64,000 bases of DNA from Microthrixaceae bacterium (GTDB lineage Bacteria > Actinomycetota > Acidimicrobiia > Acidimicrobiales > Microtrichaceae), in the NCBI GenBank assembly GCA_019694615.1, contig JAIBBP010000242.1:1-64000 (forward strand). The letters are read 5' to 3'. Position 1 is the first letter of the stretch. Every line of letters begins with the position of its first letter. The notes beneath the pieces were generated by a model that worked only from the letters and a program-made list of their open reading frames with translations, searched no databases and had not been told where the DNA came from. Positions 54,085-62,514 of this stretch are shown here, in pieces. Position numbers and translations under genes: made by a program.

Positions 54085-55743
54085 ATGTCAGAACGGTTGA
54101 CTCTTCCTGAACGCATTGAGCACGCGGCCACCCTCGGTGGAACCGTGACGTTCATCGACGGGGACTCCCACGAGACCATCACCTGGGCCGAGCTCCATCA
54201 CGACGCCAGGGTGTTCGCCGCCGGCCTCCAGGCGCGAGGGGTCGGTGAGGGCGATCACGTCGCCATCATGGGCCCCACGACGCGGGATCTGGTGACCACG
54301 ATCCAAGCGGTGTGGCTCGCCGGTGGCGTGCTTGTGATGTTGCCCCTCCCAATGCGCATGGGGTCATTGGAGCAGTTCATCGAGCAAACCCGAGATCGCA
54401 TTCGATTCGCCAAGGTCGGCACGGTGGTACTCGACCCACAGTTGGCCGAGTTCATCGAGCACCAGCCGGGTGACCCCACGTTCCTCAGCTACGCCGACCT
54501 GTCGTCCGAGTCGACCGGGCAGGTGGCGGATGACTGGAAACGTCCCACCCCCGACCCCGACGCGTTGGCGGTCCTTCAGTTCACCAGCGGTTCCACCAGC
54601 GAGCCGAAAGGCGTGATGCTCGCCCATCGGCAGCTCTGCGCCAACATCGACGGTTGTTACTCGGCGGCGCAGATGACCCTCGACGACACCGTCGTCTCCT
54701 GGTTGCCGCTCTACCACGACATGGGTCTGATCGGGCTGTTGACCATCCCGATGACGAGCGGTGCCGGACTCGTGCAGGGTGCACCGCAGGACTTCCTGTC
54801 GAAGCCGGCTCGATGGATGCAATGGGTCTCCGAACTCGACGGCACCATCACCGCGGGTCCGAACTTCAGCTTCGCCCTTGCCCGCCGCGCTCTCAATCGG
54901 GCCGAAGGCCTCGACCTGTCGCGACTGCGGATCTGCCTCAACGGCGCAGAGCCCATCGACTGTGAGGGCTTCCGGGAGTTCCTGGACGCCGGTGCCCGGT
55001 TCGGCATGGATCCCAACGCGGCGTTTCCGGCCTTCGGGATGGCGGAGGTGTGCATTGCAGGAACCTTTCCGGTCCCGGGTTCCGGCCTTCAGACCGACGT
55101 GGTCGACGGCCATGCTCTTGAACACGACCATGTCGCGACTCCGGTTGCGCCGGGCACCGATGGCGCCCGCGAGCTTGCCAAGCTGGGATTCGCGATTCCA
55201 GGCCTCGAGTTCCGGGTCGTCGCCCCCGATTCCGGTGAGGTGCTCGGCGACCGACAGGTCGGCGAGCTGCAGATTCGTGGAACTTCGCTCACGCTCGGCT
55301 ACTACGAGCGCCCCGACGCCACCGACGCTCTGTTCGACGGCGACTGGCTCCACACCGGTGACCTCGCGTACCAGGTCGACGGACAGATCGTGATGTGCGG
55401 GCGGATCAAGGACGTCATCATCATCGGCGGTCGCAACATCTACCCCCAGGACATCGAGCAGGTCGTCGGCCGGATCGATCAGGTACGCACCGGCAATGTG
55501 ATCGCCTTCGGTGAGGAGGGCGCGCACGCCAAACAGCACATCGTCGTGGTCGCTGAGACCCGCACCGAGGACCCGGTTGCGCTCAGGAAGGCGATCGGTC
55601 GCAGCGTTACCGAGGACATCGGGGTGCCGCCCCGCGAGGTGGTGCTGGTCGCTCCGGGCACGGTGCCGAAGACATCGTCGGGCAAGCTGCAGCGCTCGGC
55701 GTGCCGTCAGATGCTGCGCTCCGGCGAGCTCGTCGGGCTCTGA
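54085..55743 (+). CDS. fatty-acyl-AMP ligase-like adenylate-forming enzyme
   Basis: A 552-residue ANL-superfamily enzyme that activates a carboxylic acid, probably a fatty acid, as acyl-AMP. Motifs are FTSGSTSEPKGVML (P-loop), AFGMAEVC, HTGDLAYQVDGQIVMCGRIKDVIIIGGRN in spaced form, and a C-terminal SSGKLQRSACR with the catalytic Lys. The FAAL-type motif DMGLIGLL and the general order fit FAAL or related acyl-CoA ligases; the diagnostic FAAL insertion was not verified. ATG 54085 is preferred (GAGAAT 12 bp upstream), but ATG 54043, overlapping leuS, is possible. The transporter genes follow, suggesting that imported or exported acids are its substrate. Confidence 0.8.
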   Translation: MSERLTLPERIEHAATLGGTVTFIDGDSHETITWAELHHDARVFAAGLQARGVGEGDHVAIMGPTTRDLVTTIQAVWLAGGVLVMLPLPMRMGSLEQFIEQTRDRIRFAKVGTVVLDPQLAEFIEHQPGDPTFLSYADLSSESTGQVADDWKRPTPDPDALAVLQFTSGSTSEPKGVMLAHRQLCANIDGCYSAAQMTLDDTVVSWLPLYHDMGLIGLLTIPMTSGAGLVQGAPQDFLSKPARWMQWVSELDGTITAGPNFSFALARRALNRAEGLDLSRLRICLNGAEPIDCEGFREFLDAGARFGMDPNAAFPAFGMAEVCIAGTFPVPGSGLQTDVVDGHALEHDHVATPVAPGTDGARELAKLGFAIPGLEFRVVAPDSGEVLGDRQVGELQIRGTSLTLGYYERPDATDALFDGDWLHTGDLAYQVDGQIVMCGRIKDVIIIGGRNIYPQDIEQVVGRIDQVRTGNVIAFGEEGAHAKQHIVVVAETRTEDPVALRKAIGRSVTEDIGVPPREVVLVAPGTVPKTSSGKLQRSACRQMLRSGELVGL

Positions 55744-55757
55744 CCGACGCTCGTCAC

Positions 55758-57743
55758 GTGATCGAGCTGCGGTCGGGTGCTTACGCCGCGGCTCCCGCTG
55801 CGGGCATCGTGCTGGTGCAGCAGGTGTTCTGGCCGGTGTCGGCCGGAACGTTCGTTTCCGGACTGATCCTCGGCGGCCTCGGCGCGTTGATCGCCCTGGG
55901 GATGGCGCTCGTCTATCGGGCGAACAATGTCGTGTCGTTCGCCCAGGCTGATCTCGGCACCTTGCCGGCCACCGCGGCGATCGTGGTGATGGAGGTGTGG
56001 GGTTTCACCTACTGGATGTCGCTCGTCGGTGGTGTCGTGGCGGCGGCGATCGTCGGAGCAGTCGTCGAGTTGGCATTCATACGACGGTTCTTCACGTCGT
56101 CGCGCATGATCGTGACGGTCGCCACGATCGGGGTCGGTCAGCTCCTGAGCTTCGGAGCGTTGACCTTCCCGAACATCTGGGATCTCACGCCGACGATCCG
56201 GACGTTCGACGCTCCCTTCGAGCTCCGCCTGTCGATCGGTGCGGTTGTGTTCGACGCGAACGATCTGCTGGCAGCGATCGTGGCGCCGGTGATCCTCGTC
56301 GCTCTCACCTGGTTCCTGAGTTCGACCGATACCGGCGTCGCCATCCGCGCAGCCGCATCAGCGCCGGACCGGGCGTCGATGCTCGGCATCCCCGTCAAAC
56401 GGTTGCAAACGGAGGTTTGGGTCATCGCCGCGGTGATGTCGTTCCTCGGTGTGTTTCTCCAAGCCGGGGTCACCGGACTTCCGCCCGGTGGGTCGTTCAC
56501 ATGGTCCGTGCTGCTTCGCACACTGGCGGCGCTGGTCCTGGGAAGAATGACCAACCTCGGCGCTGTCGCAGCATCGTCGGTCGCTCTCGGGGTTCTGGAG
56601 AACGCAATGCAACGAGGCGGCGACGGCGCTCTCGTCGGGCCGGTGCTGCTCACCGTGATTCTGGTCGGACTCCTCGCTCGACGGCGCGGCGCAACGAGGC
56701 TCGCAGCGCACGAGCACGGGTCGTGGGCGCTCGCCGGCGAGTTCCACGCTCTCCCCCTCGATCTCGCAAGACTCGGTCGGGTTCGGGCGTTTCGTGTCGC
56801 TGTCGGCTCCGCCGTTACCCTGCTGGTGGTGGTCGCGCCGCAGGCGATGGGTACGGCCGGCGTGCTCAAGGCGGGCGCGATGTTGGTGTTCGCCACGATC
56901 GGGCTGTCGATGGTCGTGCTGTCGGGCTGGGCGGGCCAGGTGTCGGTCGGTCAGATGGCGTTCGTCGGAACCGGTGGTGCCGTCGGCGCCTGGTCGATCG
57001 CAGAGCGCGGGGACGACCCGGTGATCGCCATGGTGCTCGCTGGTACCGCCGGCGCTGCGCTCGCCGTGATCGTGGGCATCCCCGCGTTGCGACTGCGTGG
57101 CTTGCACCTCGCCGTCGTGACGTTGGCGCTCGCCGTCGCGGCGTCATCGGCCCTCTTCTCCAACGCCATCTGGCGCTGGATTCCGACGGGGACCTTCGAG
57201 CGCCCGAAGCTTCTCGGCCGCGTCGACATCGACTCGCCTGAGCGGCTCTACTGGCTCGCGTTCGTCGTGCTGGTTCTGGCTGTCGTCGCCGTGACCGGGC
57301 TTCGCCGGAGCCGGTTCGGACGCGTGCTCGTCGCCCAGCGGGACAACGAGGTGGCAGCGAGCTCCTTCGGCGTCCGCGTTGTGGCTGCCAAACTCGCAGC
57401 GTTTGCACTCTCGGGCTTCATCGCAGCGGTCGCCGGTGCCGTGTTCGTACTGCATCAGGCGGCGTTCCGCGACGAGAACTACGACGTCGGCGCGGGACTC
57501 GCGGTGTTCGTGGCCGCCGTGATCGGCGGTCTCGGGAGCCCACTCGGCGGAATCCTGGGGGCGGTGTATCTCCGTGGGGCGCAATGGCTGCTGCCCGGCA
57601 ACTGGCAGATCATGGCGTCGGCCGCCGGCGTCCTGATTGTGCTGCTCATGGTTCCCGATGGGTTGGCAGGGCTGTGGTTTCGAAGCCGAGACCAGCTGAT
57701 CCGGGCAATGACGCGCTCAGCGGTAGCGAAAGCCTCCGAATGA
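55758..57743 (+). CDS. LivH-LivM fused ABC permease
   Basis: A 661-residue membrane protein joining two permease halves. LivH-like covers about 20-300 (GLILGGLGALIALGMALVYRANNVVSFAQ in spaced form, then LGIPVKRLQTEVWVIAAVMSFLGV). LivM-like covers about 340-645 (LSGWAGQVSVGQMAFVGTGGAVGA, then FGVRVVAAKLAAFALSGFIAAVAGA and AVIGGLGSPLGGILGAVYL). Family members import branched-chain amino acids, amides, short fatty acids or similar. GTG 55758 is the likely start, 14 bp after the ligase stop. The stop overlaps the next gene (ATGA). Both halves in one chain ensures 1:1 stoichiometry. Confidence 0.88.
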   Translation: MIELRSGAYAAAPAAGIVLVQQVFWPVSAGTFVSGLILGGLGALIALGMALVYRANNVVSFAQADLGTLPATAAIVVMEVWGFTYWMSLVGGVVAAAIVGAVVELAFIRRFFTSSRMIVTVATIGVGQLLSFGALTFPNIWDLTPTIRTFDAPFELRLSIGAVVFDANDLLAAIVAPVILVALTWFLSSTDTGVAIRAAASAPDRASMLGIPVKRLQTEVWVIAAVMSFLGVFLQAGVTGLPPGGSFTWSVLLRTLAALVLGRMTNLGAVAASSVALGVLENAMQRGGDGALVGPVLLTVILVGLLARRRGATRLAAHEHGSWALAGEFHALPLDLARLGRVRAFRVAVGSAVTLLVVVAPQAMGTAGVLKAGAMLVFATIGLSMVVLSGWAGQVSVGQMAFVGTGGAVGAWSIAERGDDPVIAMVLAGTAGAALAVIVGIPALRLRGLHLAVVTLALAVAASSALFSNAIWRWIPTGTFERPKLLGRVDIDSPERLYWLAFVVLVLAVVAVTGLRRSRFGRVLVAQRDNEVAASSFGVRVVAAKLAAFALSGFIAAVAGAVFVLHQAAFRDENYDVGAGLAVFVAAVIGGLGSPLGGILGAVYLRGAQWLLPGNWQIMASAAGVLIVLLMVPDGLAGLWFRSRDQLIRAMTRSAVAKASE

Positions 57744-60700
57744 GGGCGCCGAACCGAGTGGCATCGCTCAAGCCATACGTCGAGGGGATGTTCAGCCCCA
57801 AACGCTGGGCCGCAAATGCGCGCCACCCGGTCGAGGCCTTGAGATCAGTGGCCGGCGATGGCCCGGTGTTCGCTCTCCTGGTTCTGTTCGGACTCAACGC
57901 CGTCGATGAGCTCGACCGTTCCGGGTTCGGCATCCTCCTGCCGACGATCCGCGATCACTTCGGAATGACCGACACCGAGATCCTGTCGCTCGTGGCGCTC
58001 ACCGCGCTCGGAGCGCTTCTGCTGCAGCTGCCCATCGCCTGGTGGGCCGATCGCGGTTCGCGCGTCCGGCTCGCGGTGTTCGGTGGTGTCGCGTGGGGAG
58101 CTTTCTCGTTTCTGACCGGCACGTCGACGTCGGTCTGGATGCTGGTGCTGGTCCGCGCCGGCGCCGGGGTCGGCCGGGCCGTCGTGGACCCGACCCACGG
58201 CTCGCTGCTGTCGGACCTGTACAGCGTCGACCGCAGGCCGGCGGTGTTCTCGTTCCACCGTTCCGCAAACGCGGTCGGCCAGTTCGTTGGTCCATTGCTG
58301 GCAGGGGCCTTGTCGCACTGGTTCGGTTGGCGGGTGCCGTTCCTCGTGTTCGCGATTCCGACGGTCGTACTCGTCGTCCTCGCCACGCGCCTGCGCGAAC
58401 CGCTCCGGGGAGCGCAGGAGCGCCGCGCCATGGGCGCATCCGCGGAGGTCGTCGACACCGAGGAGCCGAACGCCTCGTTCGGTGAGGCGTGGCGCATGGT
58501 CTGGAAGATCGAATCGCTGCGGCGGATCTGGTACGCAATTCCCTTCCTCGCAGTGTCGATCATCGGCTTCGTGTCGCTCGCCGGGCTGCTGTACGACCGG
58601 GTGTACGGCTACAACGACCTCGAACGGGGTGTTCTCGCCGCGCTCGTCGAACCGTTCCAACTGCTCGGCCTCGCCATCGGTGGCCGCGTGGGCGTGCGGC
58701 TCATGGCGAAGGACCCCGCTCTCGTGTTCGGGTTCTTTCGCTACGTTGCGTTCGCGTCGGGGCTGTGGGCGGCGGCTTTCGCATGGTCGCCGAACATCGT
58801 CGTTACGGTCGTCGCGAACCTCCTGCTGTCCTCGACGCTGGCGATCCTGCTTCCCGGGATCCTCGCCGCGCTGTCCTTGGCCATTCCCGCGCGGGCCCGA
58901 TCCGTCGGGTTCTCTGTAGCCAGCTACTGGGCGATTCCGGGTCTGGTCTTCGTGCCGGCGATCGGATGGTTGTCGGACAACCTGGGCATCCGCTGGGGGA
59001 TGCTCACCATGACGCCTCTGCTGGTCGTCGGCGGGCTGATCATCTCGACGGTTTCGGGAACGATCAAACGCGACATCGACGACGTGTGGGCGGCGTCGTC
59101 GACCCGCAGCAAGGCGTTGTTCCTCCGGCGGAAGGGCGACGCCAAGCTGCTAATCGTGAAGGACCTCAACGTGTCCTACGGCAGCCTTCAGGTGCTCTTC
59201 GACGTGAGCCTGGAGGTCGGCGAAGGAGAGGTCGTGGCGCTGCTCGGTACCAACGGAGCCGGCAAGTCGACGTTGCTCAAAGCGATCTCGGGTATCAGCG
59301 AGGCGGAGTTCGGCGCCGTGATCTTCGACGGCCGTGACATCACCCACGCGCCCCCACACGAGATCGCGACCCTGGGTGTCGGGCAGATGCCGGGTGGTCA
59401 CGGGGTGTTCCCGACGTTGACCGTTGCCGAGAACCTGCGCGCCGCCGACTGGATGGGCCGACGCGACCGCGCGAAACGGCAGGCGGCGATCGAGCAGGCC
59501 TACCAGTCATTTCCGATTCTGCGCACACGCTCCGATGAGCCGGCTGCCAATCTGTCCGGCGGCCAACAGCAGCAGCTGGCACTGGCGATGAATCTGATCG
59601 GAGCGCCTCGTTTGCTCATGATCGACGAGCTGTCTCTCGGATTGGCCCCGGTTGTGGTGGAACGCCTCGGCGACATGGTGCGCTCTGTAGCGAAGTCGGG
59701 CACAACCGTGATCCTGGTGGAGCAGTCGGTGAACGTGGCGTTGGCCCTCGCCGACCGGGCACTCTTCATGGAAAAGGGGGAGATCCGCTTCTCCGGACCG
59801 ACCTCGGAGTTGCTCGACCGCCCAGACCTCCTGCGATCTGTGTTCCTCGGAAAGGCGATCCAGGCGGCTCCGGGCCGACGCACCGGTGTATCCCAGGGAA
59901 CCGAGGGTTCGTCTGAGATCCCTGGACCTGCGCTGGCGACCCACGACCTGACCGTCTCCTTCGGTGGTATCCGCGCCGTCGACGAGGTAGGTCTCGATGT
60001 GCGTCCACATGAGATCGTCGGCCTCATCGGCCCGAACGGTGCGGGAAAGACGACGTTGTTCGACCTCATCTGCGGCTACACCGCTGCGGACCATGGTCGG
60101 GTGGTGCTCGATGGTCACGACGTTGCCGGCTTCTCTCCTCACCGCATAGCCAGGATGGGGCTCGGTCGTTCCTTTCAGGATGCGGGCCTGTTCGCGTCGC
60201 TTACCGTCGAGGAGACCATCGCCGTTGCGTTGGAACGGTGGGTAGCGGTCAGGGATCCGATCAGCGCCATGCTCCGACTCCCGGGATCGATCGAGTCCGA
60301 GGATCACGTCTCGCGTCGCGTCGACGAGCTGATCGAGCTCTTCGACCTCGGCCGATTCCGCGACAACTTCATCAACGAGCTGTCGACGGGCTCGCGCCGC
60401 ATCGTCGATCTGGCTTGCGTCGTCGCGCATTCGCCGAATGTGCTGCTGCTGGACGAGCCGTCATCGGGGATCGCTCAGCGCGAGGCTGAAGCACTCGGGC
60501 CGCTCATCGTTCGCCTCCGTGACGAGTTGGGCTGCGCCATTGTCGTGATCGAACACGACATGCCACTCCTGGCCTCGATCTGCGATCGACTCATCGCGCT
60601 CGAGTCCGGCGCGGTGATTGCGAGCGGGCCGGTCACCGACGTGCTCACCGACGAGCGGGTGATCTCTGCCTACCTCGGCACCTCGCCGAACGTGATCGCA

Positions 60701-60775
60701 CGGTCCGGCGCGGTGGCCGGCGGTGATCCGGGTGCCCCCGCACCATCCGAATCCGACCAAGGAGGCGCGCCATGA
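57740..60775 (+). CDS. MFS transporter fused to LivF-like and LivG-like ABC ATPases
   Basis: A single 1011-residue chain. Residues 1-about 455 form an MFS transporter with about 12 helices (ALGALLLQLPIAWWADRGSRVR in spaced form, then FSFHRSANAVGQFVGPLLAG). ABC domain 1 (about 470-705) has Walker A GTNGAGKS (K509), signature LSGGQ (605-609) and D629-E630, and looks like LivF. ABC domain 2 (about 730-985) has GPNGAGKT (K770), an atypical signature LSTGSRR (881-887) and D905-E906, and looks like LivG. No stop or frameshift interrupts the joints, so the fusion is real in this sequence. It is coupled to the fused permease and to the binding protein by 4-bp overlaps. Confidence 0.88.
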   Translation: MRAPNRVASLKPYVEGMFSPKRWAANARHPVEALRSVAGDGPVFALLVLFGLNAVDELDRSGFGILLPTIRDHFGMTDTEILSLVALTALGALLLQLPIAWWADRGSRVRLAVFGGVAWGAFSFLTGTSTSVWMLVLVRAGAGVGRAVVDPTHGSLLSDLYSVDRRPAVFSFHRSANAVGQFVGPLLAGALSHWFGWRVPFLVFAIPTVVLVVLATRLREPLRGAQERRAMGASAEVVDTEEPNASFGEAWRMVWKIESLRRIWYAIPFLAVSIIGFVSLAGLLYDRVYGYNDLERGVLAALVEPFQLLGLAIGGRVGVRLMAKDPALVFGFFRYVAFASGLWAAAFAWSPNIVVTVVANLLLSSTLAILLPGILAALSLAIPARARSVGFSVASYWAIPGLVFVPAIGWLSDNLGIRWGMLTMTPLLVVGGLIISTVSGTIKRDIDDVWAASSTRSKALFLRRKGDAKLLIVKDLNVSYGSLQVLFDVSLEVGEGEVVALLGTNGAGKSTLLKAISGISEAEFGAVIFDGRDITHAPPHEIATLGVGQMPGGHGVFPTLTVAENLRAADWMGRRDRAKRQAAIEQAYQSFPILRTRSDEPAANLSGGQQQQLALAMNLIGAPRLLMIDELSLGLAPVVVERLGDMVRSVAKSGTTVILVEQSVNVALALADRALFMEKGEIRFSGPTSELLDRPDLLRSVFLGKAIQAAPGRRTGVSQGTEGSSEIPGPALATHDLTVSFGGIRAVDEVGLDVRPHEIVGLIGPNGAGKTTLFDLICGYTAADHGRVVLDGHDVAGFSPHRIARMGLGRSFQDAGLFASLTVEETIAVALERWVAVRDPISAMLRLPGSIESEDHVSRRVDELIELFDLGRFRDNFINELSTGSRRIVDLACVVAHSPNVLLLDEPSSGIAQREAEALGPLIVRLRDELGCAIVVIEHDMPLLASICDRLIALESGAVIASGPVTDVLTDERVISAYLGTSPNVIARSGAVAGGDPGAPAPSESDQGGAP

Positions 60776-62514
60776 CCGACACGGGTGGCTCAAGTCTTCG
60801 ACCCAGTGAGCGTCCGCCGCTCAGCCCATTCACCAAGTACGGGCCGCTGGCCCTGATGTGCGTTGCGCTCCTCGCCCTGCTCGCGCTGGCCGCAACCGGT
60901 GGAGGGGACGGTTCTGACGTGGTCGCGGCGCCGGAGTCCACCACCGTCGCCAACGGCCGTTCGGACGACGCCTATGCGAACCTGCCCGACGGCGTCGAGG
61001 TGTTCGCTCGGGCTCGGGCCGAGGGAAGAGCCGGCGACATCGACTGGGGTGAGCGGTGCGACACCTCGACCGGCAAGGTGAAGCTGCCCCTCTGGCCACA
61101 GCCTGACTGCTTCAAGCCGTTCGAGGGCGAGAACGGCGGCGTGACCGAGACCGGGGTGGACGAGGAGTCGATCAAGGTCGTTGTGTACCTACCGCAGAAG
61201 GACGACCCGGTCCTCAAGTTCATCTACGCGCAGATCGGCAACAACGACACCCCCGACCAGTCGTTCGCGACGTTCGAAGGCTTCGTCGAGATCTTCAACA
61301 GGTACTACGAGACGTATGGCCGCAAGGTTCAGCTGATCCGCTACGACGCCACAGGGCCGATCAGCGATCCGACCGCTGCGACCGCCGACGCCGAGACGAT
61401 CGCCCGGGACATCCGGCCATTCTTCGTGATCGGTGGCCCGAACCTGACCAACGCGTTTGCGGACACCCTCGCTCGTAACCAGATCGCCTGCATCGGCTGT
61501 ACGCCTCCTCAACCAGCAGCGTGGTACGACGAGCGCTCTCCGTATGTGTGGGACGTGGCTCGCAACGCGGATCAGGCGTCTCAACAGGTCGGCGAGTACA
61601 TCGGCAGGCGGCTGGCCGGACGACCGGCGGTCTTCGCGGGTGACGCGGCGATGCATACCCGAGAGCGGGTGTTCGGCTACGTCCACGTCGTGAGCTCCGA
61701 TTCCTCACAGGAGCTCGAGGACCGCTTCACGGCGATGCTGCGAGACGAGTACGACACCGAGTTCGCCACTATCCAGACTTACGGTCTGCCGACGGAGCTC
61801 GCCGGATCGGGCAAGGACATCATCACCCGCCTCAAAGAAGCGGGCGTGACGACGGTGCTGTTCACCGGCGACCCGCTGGGACCGCAGACGCTGACGAGGA
61901 TCGCGACCCAACAGGAGTACTTCCCCGAGTGGGTGCTCGGCCAGACCGTGCTCGTGGACACCGCCGTGTTCTCGCGGACCTACGACCAGCGTCAGTGGGC
62001 GCACGCCTTCGGCCCGTCGGGACTCTTCGCTCGGACCGCACCGAGCGCCGCTGGTGCTGGGTTCCTCTACGAGTGGTACTTCGATGAGCCCCCGCCGGCG
62101 CGCGGCGTTGCGCTGATCATCGGTCCGCTCCAGGTGATCTTCGGCGCCGTCCAGGGCGTCGGCCCCAACCTCACCCATGAACGATTCCGGGCAGCGATTT
62201 TCGCCGCTCCGATCATCCCGTCGACCTCGGTCACTCCACAGGTGTCGTTCGGGAATCACGGATACTTTCCCGTCACGGACTACTCGGCCGTTGATGATTT
62301 CACCGAGGTCTGGTGGGACGCGGATGCGGTGGGACCCGACGAGATCGGCAACGAGGGCCGAGGCCTGTGGCGATACGTATCGGGCGGAAAACGCTGGCTT
62401 CCAGGCGAGCTTCCCGACGAGGCGCCGAATGTGTTCGATCCCGAGGGTTCGGTGCTGATCTACGACGAGCCGCCTGCGGGGGCTGAGCTTCCCGCGTACG
62501 AGCCGCTTCGCTGA
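60772..62514 (+). CDS. membrane-anchored substrate-binding protein (Liv type)
   Basis: 580 residues. A short cytosolic N-terminus precedes a hydrophobic helix at about 24-44 (GPLALMCVALLALLALAATGG, in part). There is no lipobox Cys, so it is an uncleaved anchor or signal. The large external part has the two-lobe periplasmic-binding fold of the Liv family (VDEESIKVVVYLP, then RDIRPFFVIGG and ADTLARNQIACIG). It is longer than usual (about 400) because of N-terminal and C-terminal extensions, and contains at least four Cys. It starts at ATG 60772, overlapping the ATPase fusion, so it is the receptor of this transporter. The ligand is unknown. Confidence 0.85.
   Translation: MTDTGGSSLRPSERPPLSPFTKYGPLALMCVALLALLALAATGGGDGSDVVAAPESTTVANGRSDDAYANLPDGVEVFARARAEGRAGDIDWGERCDTSTGKVKLPLWPQPDCFKPFEGENGGVTETGVDEESIKVVVYLPQKDDPVLKFIYAQIGNNDTPDQSFATFEGFVEIFNRYYETYGRKVQLIRYDATGPISDPTAATADAETIARDIRPFFVIGGPNLTNAFADTLARNQIACIGCTPPQPAAWYDERSPYVWDVARNADQASQQVGEYIGRRLAGRPAVFAGDAAMHTRERVFGYVHVVSSDSSQELEDRFTAMLRDEYDTEFATIQTYGLPTELAGSGKDIITRLKEAGVTTVLFTGDPLGPQTLTRIATQQEYFPEWVLGQTVLVDTAVFSRTYDQRQWAHAFGPSGLFARTAPSAAGAGFLYEWYFDEPPPARGVALIIGPLQVIFGAVQGVGPNLTHERFRAAIFAAPIIPSTSVTPQVSFGNHGYFPVTDYSAVDDFTEVWWDADAVGPDEIGNEGRGLWRYVSGGKRWLPGELPDEAPNVFDPEGSVLIYDEPPAGAELPAYEPLR

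Follow-up and report, generated by a model that had tools for sequence, protein, structure and literature searches.

A Liv-type ABC ATPase pair fused to a Spinster-like MFS domain: an apparently undescribed type of transport complex in Actinomycetota

Introduction

No transporter superfamilies are larger than those of the ABC pumps and the MFS carriers, which are usually treated as separate energy modes. The ATPases of HAAT/Liv importers (LivFGHMJ, UrtABCDE) act as a LivF/LivG pair on a LivH/LivM permease, which recruits them to the membrane, and the pair is asymmetric in any case. The arsenite pump ArsAB combines a secondary-carrier fold with an ATPase, ArsA energizing the carrier ArsB, but ArsA falls outside the ABC ATPases, ArsB falls outside the MFS, and no ABC permease stands alongside. 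In UhpC, a sensor of glucose 6-phosphate, the MFS fold has a regulatory use, but the target is a two-component system and not ABC ATPases. Two ABC domains share one chain in DppD/OppD of the mycobacterial DppABCD/OppABCD systems, which have a separate permease and were among the top Foldseek matches in this analysis; they lack an MFS domain and belong to another ABC family. Spinster (Spns) carriers, represented by HnSpns (6E9C), MsSpns, and human SPNS1/2, have a 12-TM MFS fold with motif A and move lipids or drugs by proton coupling. HnSpns uses an Asp87-Arg91-Asp142 charge relay, a loop tether at Arg233/Gly234, and proton switches at Glu129 (the master switch) and Asp41, with Arg42 and Arg122 (PMC9440201).

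The window analyzed here is a 64,000-nucleotide stretch of contig JAIBBP010000242.1 from a Microthrixaceae genome (assembly GCA_019694615.1). It encodes homologs of LivH, LivM, LivF, and LivG with the ATPase motifs and BCA_ABC_TP_C tail of the HAAT/Liv importers. The two BPD_transp_2 units, the LivF/LivG-like ATPases, and the type I binding protein place the locus in that class, and ATP-driven uptake of an amino acid or related solute is predicted for it. It differs from described members in having fused permeases, fused ATPases, an MFS domain on LivF, and a binding protein of about 580 residues that is mostly unrecognized by Pfam. The first-pass annotation, made from the DNA letters alone, gave the impression that no characterized transporter has this layout, and that impression held up. 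No description of an MFS-ABC polypeptide was found by term searches of 5.39 million open-access papers, and none of the best 50 Foldseek PDB matches to the fusion has a description that mentions both an MFS and an ABC domain. The MFS-LivF-LivG system is real and conserved, and it is apparently an undescribed type of transport complex.

Architecture of the fusion protein

A reading-frame check of the window found the 1011-residue frame uninterrupted from its ATG at 57740 to its stop at 60775 on the plus strand. The domain-architecture search that the first-pass annotation had proposed for this protein matched MFS_1 at residues 50-395 (Pfam, E = 1e-42) and two ABC_tran domains (whole-protein E = 1.8e-58) with a BCA_ABC_TP_C tail. 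The best NCBIfam models were UrtE/LivF-like at residues 471-691 and UrtD/LivG-like at residues 731-981, so the order along the chain is a 12-helix MFS domain followed by a LivF-type and then a LivG-type ATPase (Table 1). AlphaFold2 was used to model the fusion with 39 family members, giving a mean pLDDT of 86.6 and a pTM of 0.75. Residues 43-440 of the model contain the 12 membrane helices, and a linker helix (442-464) then runs into LivF. Its pLDDT drops below 50 only at residues 1-6, 703-727, and 982-1011, the second of these being the linker between the two ATPases. The catalytic landmarks named in the first-pass annotation, K509, LSGGQ (605-609), and D629-E630 in the first ATPase and K770, LSTGSRR (881-887), and D905-E906 in the second, are all where it had put them. 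D445 in the linker helix was considered as a fusion-specific joint and rejected, as four unfused MFS relatives also have it.

Table 1 Features of the MFS-LivF-LivG locus in the window
Feature	Position	Strand	Evidence
Acyl-CoA/acyl-AMP ligase (FadD-like), probably cotranscribed	54085..55743	+	AMP-binding E 3.6e-63 (Pfam)
LivH-LivM fused permease, 661 aa (GTG start; other starts possible)	55758..57743	+	BPD_transp_2, synteny in relatives
MFS-LivF-LivG fusion gene, 1011 aa	57740..60775	+	Frame, Pfam, NCBIfam, AlphaFold2
MFS domain, residues 43-440, 12 TM helices, Spinster-like	57866..59059	+	AlphaFold2 helices, PDB profile matches
Linker helix, residues 442-464, TM12 to LivF; D445 invariant	59063..59131	+	AlphaFold2, alignment
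LivF-type ATPase domain, residues 465-705 (K509, LSGGQ, D629-E630, Q662 at H-loop position)	59132..59854	+	Pfam, NCBIfam, alignment
LivG-type ATPase domain, residues 728-1000 (K770, LSTGSRR 881-887, D905-E906, H939)	59921..60739	+	Pfam, NCBIfam, alignment
Large solute-binding protein, 580 aa, N-terminal hydrophobic segment, type I periplasmic-binding fold	60772..62514	+	AlphaFold2, Foldseek

Conservation and distribution

Strong matches to the fusion were present in 40 of 61 genomes (the window's own and 60 relatives), many of them full-length with no internal stop. A class sample yielded matches at E ≤ 1e-180 in 52 of 295 genomes and 40 of 157 genera, and a phylum sample yielded matches at 1e-165 in 15 of 396 genomes, including families outside the class. 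A pattern scan of genome contigs, which reaches close relatives only, named Acidimicrobiaceae, Acidimicrobiia, and other Actinobacteria metagenome-assembled genomes as carriers; outside Actinomycetota it returned mostly plain ABC ATPases. The unbroken fusion recurs in independent genomes down to 40-50% identity, and the single-contig genome G076 has it at 54% identity over residues 34-991 with no stop inside. The assembly behind the window is a draft in 284 contigs, but dozens of independent genomes carry this fusion unbroken, which refutes a missed stop, frameshift, or misassembly joining two genes; the chance of such an artefact is negligible. The single MFS-to-both-ATPases polypeptide claimed in the first-pass annotation is thus borne out by the frame, the domain searches, and the genomes of relatives. 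Two genomes (G045 and G039) hold about eight paralogous MFS-LivF-LivG copies on several contigs, which suggests expansion for different substrates.

Fifty-seven loci with the window's layout were extracted, and residue counts are based on the 53 that are not truncated (4 are). Of the 57, 55 include a LivHM permease and the other two are contig ends, which agrees with the earlier proposal that the tethered LivF-LivG pair serves the adjacent LivH-LivM permease. A binding protein similar to that of the window is recognizable in 48 of the 57. The checked Walker A, Walker B, Q-loop, and H-loop positions are invariant in the 53 fusions, K509, D629-E630, K770, and D905-E906 among them; the LSGGQ and LSTGSRR signatures vary slightly, the latter reading LSTG[S/T]RR in the fusions.

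The close relatives that lack the MFS part comprise 12 LivF-LivG proteins and 17 single-chain LivH-LivM-LivF-LivG proteins. LSTGSRR had been read as a possible special asymmetry of this fusion, a reading that fails because the LivG signature is LSTG[S/T/M]RR in 29 of 29 MFS-free relatives examined. The signature is a lineage trait common to the fusion and the MFS-free relatives. The Gln at the LivF H-loop position is likewise common to fusions and MFS-free relatives.

The MFS domain resembles Spinster carriers

A PDB profile search was used to find the closest solved structures to the MFS domain, which were HnSpns (6e8j, E = 2.8e-29) and human SPNS1 (9boi, E = 7e-18). The motif A residues D104 and R108, D159 in TM4, and the loop-tether pair R223-G224 are each present in 53 of 53 fusions and are equivalent to HnSpns D87, R91, D142, R233, and G234. 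The HnSpns positions D41, R42, and R122 are mostly retained (46, 39, and 47 of 53, respectively). In the residue numbering of the fusion, the membrane charges kept are D59 (46/53), R139 (47/53), H153 (47/53), and R174 (43/53). The exception is the master proton switch. No fusion has Glu at the HnSpns E129 position (0/53), which is occupied instead by Arg (22), Lys (12), Gln (6), Ala (5), Leu (5), Asp (2), or Gly (1). H153 lies seven residues, or two helical turns, past this position. The Glu129 equivalent is missing from most unfused MFS relatives as well, so its absence is a property of the subfamily, and the idea that fusion caused the loss of the proton switch was rejected.

Divergence of the MFS domain keeps pace with that of the permease in close comparisons and is somewhat faster in distant ones, and the two correlate (r = 0.78). 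The domain is Spns-like in fold and relay but is not classed as a Spns member, since the TM4 Glu is absent; being joined to an ABC ATPase is a further difference from Spns carriers. The retained residues point to a domain that can probably still switch between conformations and probably has an anion as its ligand, with no Spns-type proton switch.

A second layout links the MFS domain to the permease complex

A search with the MFS domain only uncovered eight loci (L164, L165, L166, L167, L168, L177, L179, and L180) in which MFS-LivF (about 750 aa) is encoded by one gene and LivH-LivM-LivG (about 940 aa) by a neighboring gene. Pfam confirmed this layout for three of the eight, and two of the eight lie in single-contig genomes (G004 and G038). 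The second layout forms a separate clade (99*), and the spacing from the MFS C-terminus to LivF is similar in both layouts. In a further locus (L169), MFS-LivF occurs with LivG as a separate gene.

The second layout is the strongest evidence on mechanism in this analysis. If LivF and LivG pair here as is established for Liv-type importers, the MFS-LivF and LivHM-LivG chains must meet through the LivF/LivG dimer, which brings the MFS domain and the permease into one complex and removes the reading of the MFS unit as an unrelated passenger. The MFS domain thus very probably belongs to the same physical complex as LivHM. The first-pass annotation had left the MFS unit as a second transport route, a membrane anchor, or a regulator; that choice is now narrowed, with a pure anchor disfavored. 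In a sub-branch within the second layout (L169, L179, and L180), the motif A Asp and the L6-7 tether Arg are gone although the fusion is kept, and there the MFS domain possibly has a non-transport role.

Neighboring genes and the predicted substrate

The fusion gene begins within the last codons of LivHM (ATGA overlap), and the binding-protein gene begins likewise at the fusion stop; with overlaps at both junctions, the permease, fusion, and binding-protein genes look translationally coupled. BPD_transp_2 matches the permease in two stretches (Pfam, E = 6.3e-51), corresponding to two permease units. The 580-residue binding protein itself had no Pfam or NCBIfam match, and Peripla_BP_6 was matched weakly by 5 of 19 members of its family. 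The AlphaFold2 model of the protein (pLDDT 86.1) gave 4evs and 4n0q as the best Foldseek matches, with LivJ also among the matches. The closest structural relatives are Liv-class binders of 4-hydroxybenzoate, leucine, and coumarate, and a fatty-acid binder ranks lower; all are at about 11-16% identity. The protein is longer than LivJ-like proteins and has conserved cysteines, C96 and C113.

A FadD homolog (≥50% identity) accompanies 16 of 53 MFS-fusion loci, including that of the window, and none of the 29 MFS-free loci. With only 16 of 53 fusion loci having it, FadD was rejected as an obligatory partner. The binding-protein fold and the presence of FadD in a subset of loci make a small or lipophilic carboxylate the best guess for the substrate. 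The genes around the window locus, leuS and FadD upstream and PAC2 and APH-like genes downstream, are found again at about a dozen MFS-fusion loci, and the locus therefore seems mainly vertically inherited. Several antisense "neighbor" clusters that recur in the locus comparison were disregarded as shadow frames of high-GC genes.

Role of the MFS domain

The proposed system is a Liv-type (HAAT-class) ABC importer with a Spinster-like MFS carrier domain covalently joined to its LivF ATPase. The working complex would consist of the binding protein, the LivH-LivM permease, the LivF/LivG pair, and the MFS domain. ATP hydrolysis by LivF/LivG would power LivHM uptake of a small acid handed over by the binding protein, by its predicted class probably an aromatic, branched-chain, or fatty carboxylate, which the neighboring FadD ligase may activate. 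LivF would hold the MFS domain beside the permease, where it probably still alternates between conformations and most likely would handle a related anion along a second route or exchange path that operates without the Spns proton switch. An ABC importer with an integrated MFS carrier as a second or exchange route is, on balance, the overall explanation preferred here. The transport role of the MFS domain taken by itself is put forward tentatively, as a reading of conserved residues that could well hold. The replacement of Glu129 in all 53 fusions means that the domain may not transport as Spns does, and the MFS-free relatives (12 LivFG and 17 LivHMFG) make it dispensable for ABC function as such.

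The same residues can be read another way, with the MFS domain as a substrate sensor or regulator in which solute binding triggers a conformational change that turns the ATPases on or off and no solute is moved. The retained conformational machinery with an absent proton-switch Glu, the direct helical tether to LivF, and the decay of motif A in the still-fused sub-branch all fit such a role. It is nevertheless unlikely, if credible, because motif A and the tether serve the transport cycle and are invariant in 53 of 53 window-type proteins, and no example of an MFS domain that regulates an ABC ATPase was found in the literature searched. A more ambitious version of the carrier reading has one ATPase pair mechanically coupled to both the ABC permease and the MFS carrier, with ATP binding and hydrolysis gating or powering the MFS half, as in export of a counter-ion or product during permease import; this is distinctly unlikely.

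That the MFS domain only anchors the ATPase pair at the membrane is improbable. MFS-free relatives, judged by their intact genes, work without it, which would fit a simple anchor, but the permease recruits LivF/LivG anyway and a 12-helix carrier far exceeds what anchoring needs. The invariant charged residues of the MFS machinery and a divergence roughly at the permease rate speak against it as well. Direct energization of the MFS domain by the ATPases, as ArsA does for ArsB, would account for the covalent tie to LivF in both layouts and the missing Spns proton switch but is highly improbable, since a complete cognate permease, the normal LivF/LivG partner, lies alongside wherever the contig shows it and MFS proteins are not known to have coupling helices.

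If an importer with an integrated MFS carrier is the right reading, primary (ATP-driven) ABC and secondary (gradient-driven) MFS transport are joined in one complex, in two layouts and in many Actinomycetota genera. The system makes it testable whether an ABC ATPase gates, senses through, or powers an MFS domain, and sister systems that lack the MFS part, in some cases within one genome, are a clean natural control. Annotation can easily reduce such a fusion to an "MFS transporter" or to an "ABC ATP-binding protein".

Gain and loss of the MFS part

The existence of MFS-free relatives marks the MFS part as an optional, separable module. In a LivFG tree the MFS-bearing proteins fall in one cluster that has some MFS-free proteins inside it (SH-aLRT 92), and the single-chain LivHMFG proteins lie outside. 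This tree, from one sampling and unrooted for this purpose, requires at least five state changes for MFS presence. The MFS tree places four unfused MFS genes inside the fused group. With the second layout forming a clade of its own, a single clean gain of the MFS part is unsupported; the trees indicate gain or loss on several occasions, and no single origin is claimed.

One of the four unfused genes (L171:6959-8347) is divergent from an operon of a binding protein and a single-chain LivHMFG. An MFS gene near another locus (L104) was dropped as an unfused counterpart, being only 23% similar and grouping far away. The window's own genome carries, on contig C72, one of the single-chain LivH-LivM-LivF-LivG proteins (L009:7739-12067, 1443 aa) with binding-protein sequence adjoining, and there are 16 further single-chain cases. 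Two LivF-LivG proteins have about 200 extra residues with no Pfam match, at the C-terminus in L136 (7226-9565) and at the N-terminus in L120 (7648-9864).
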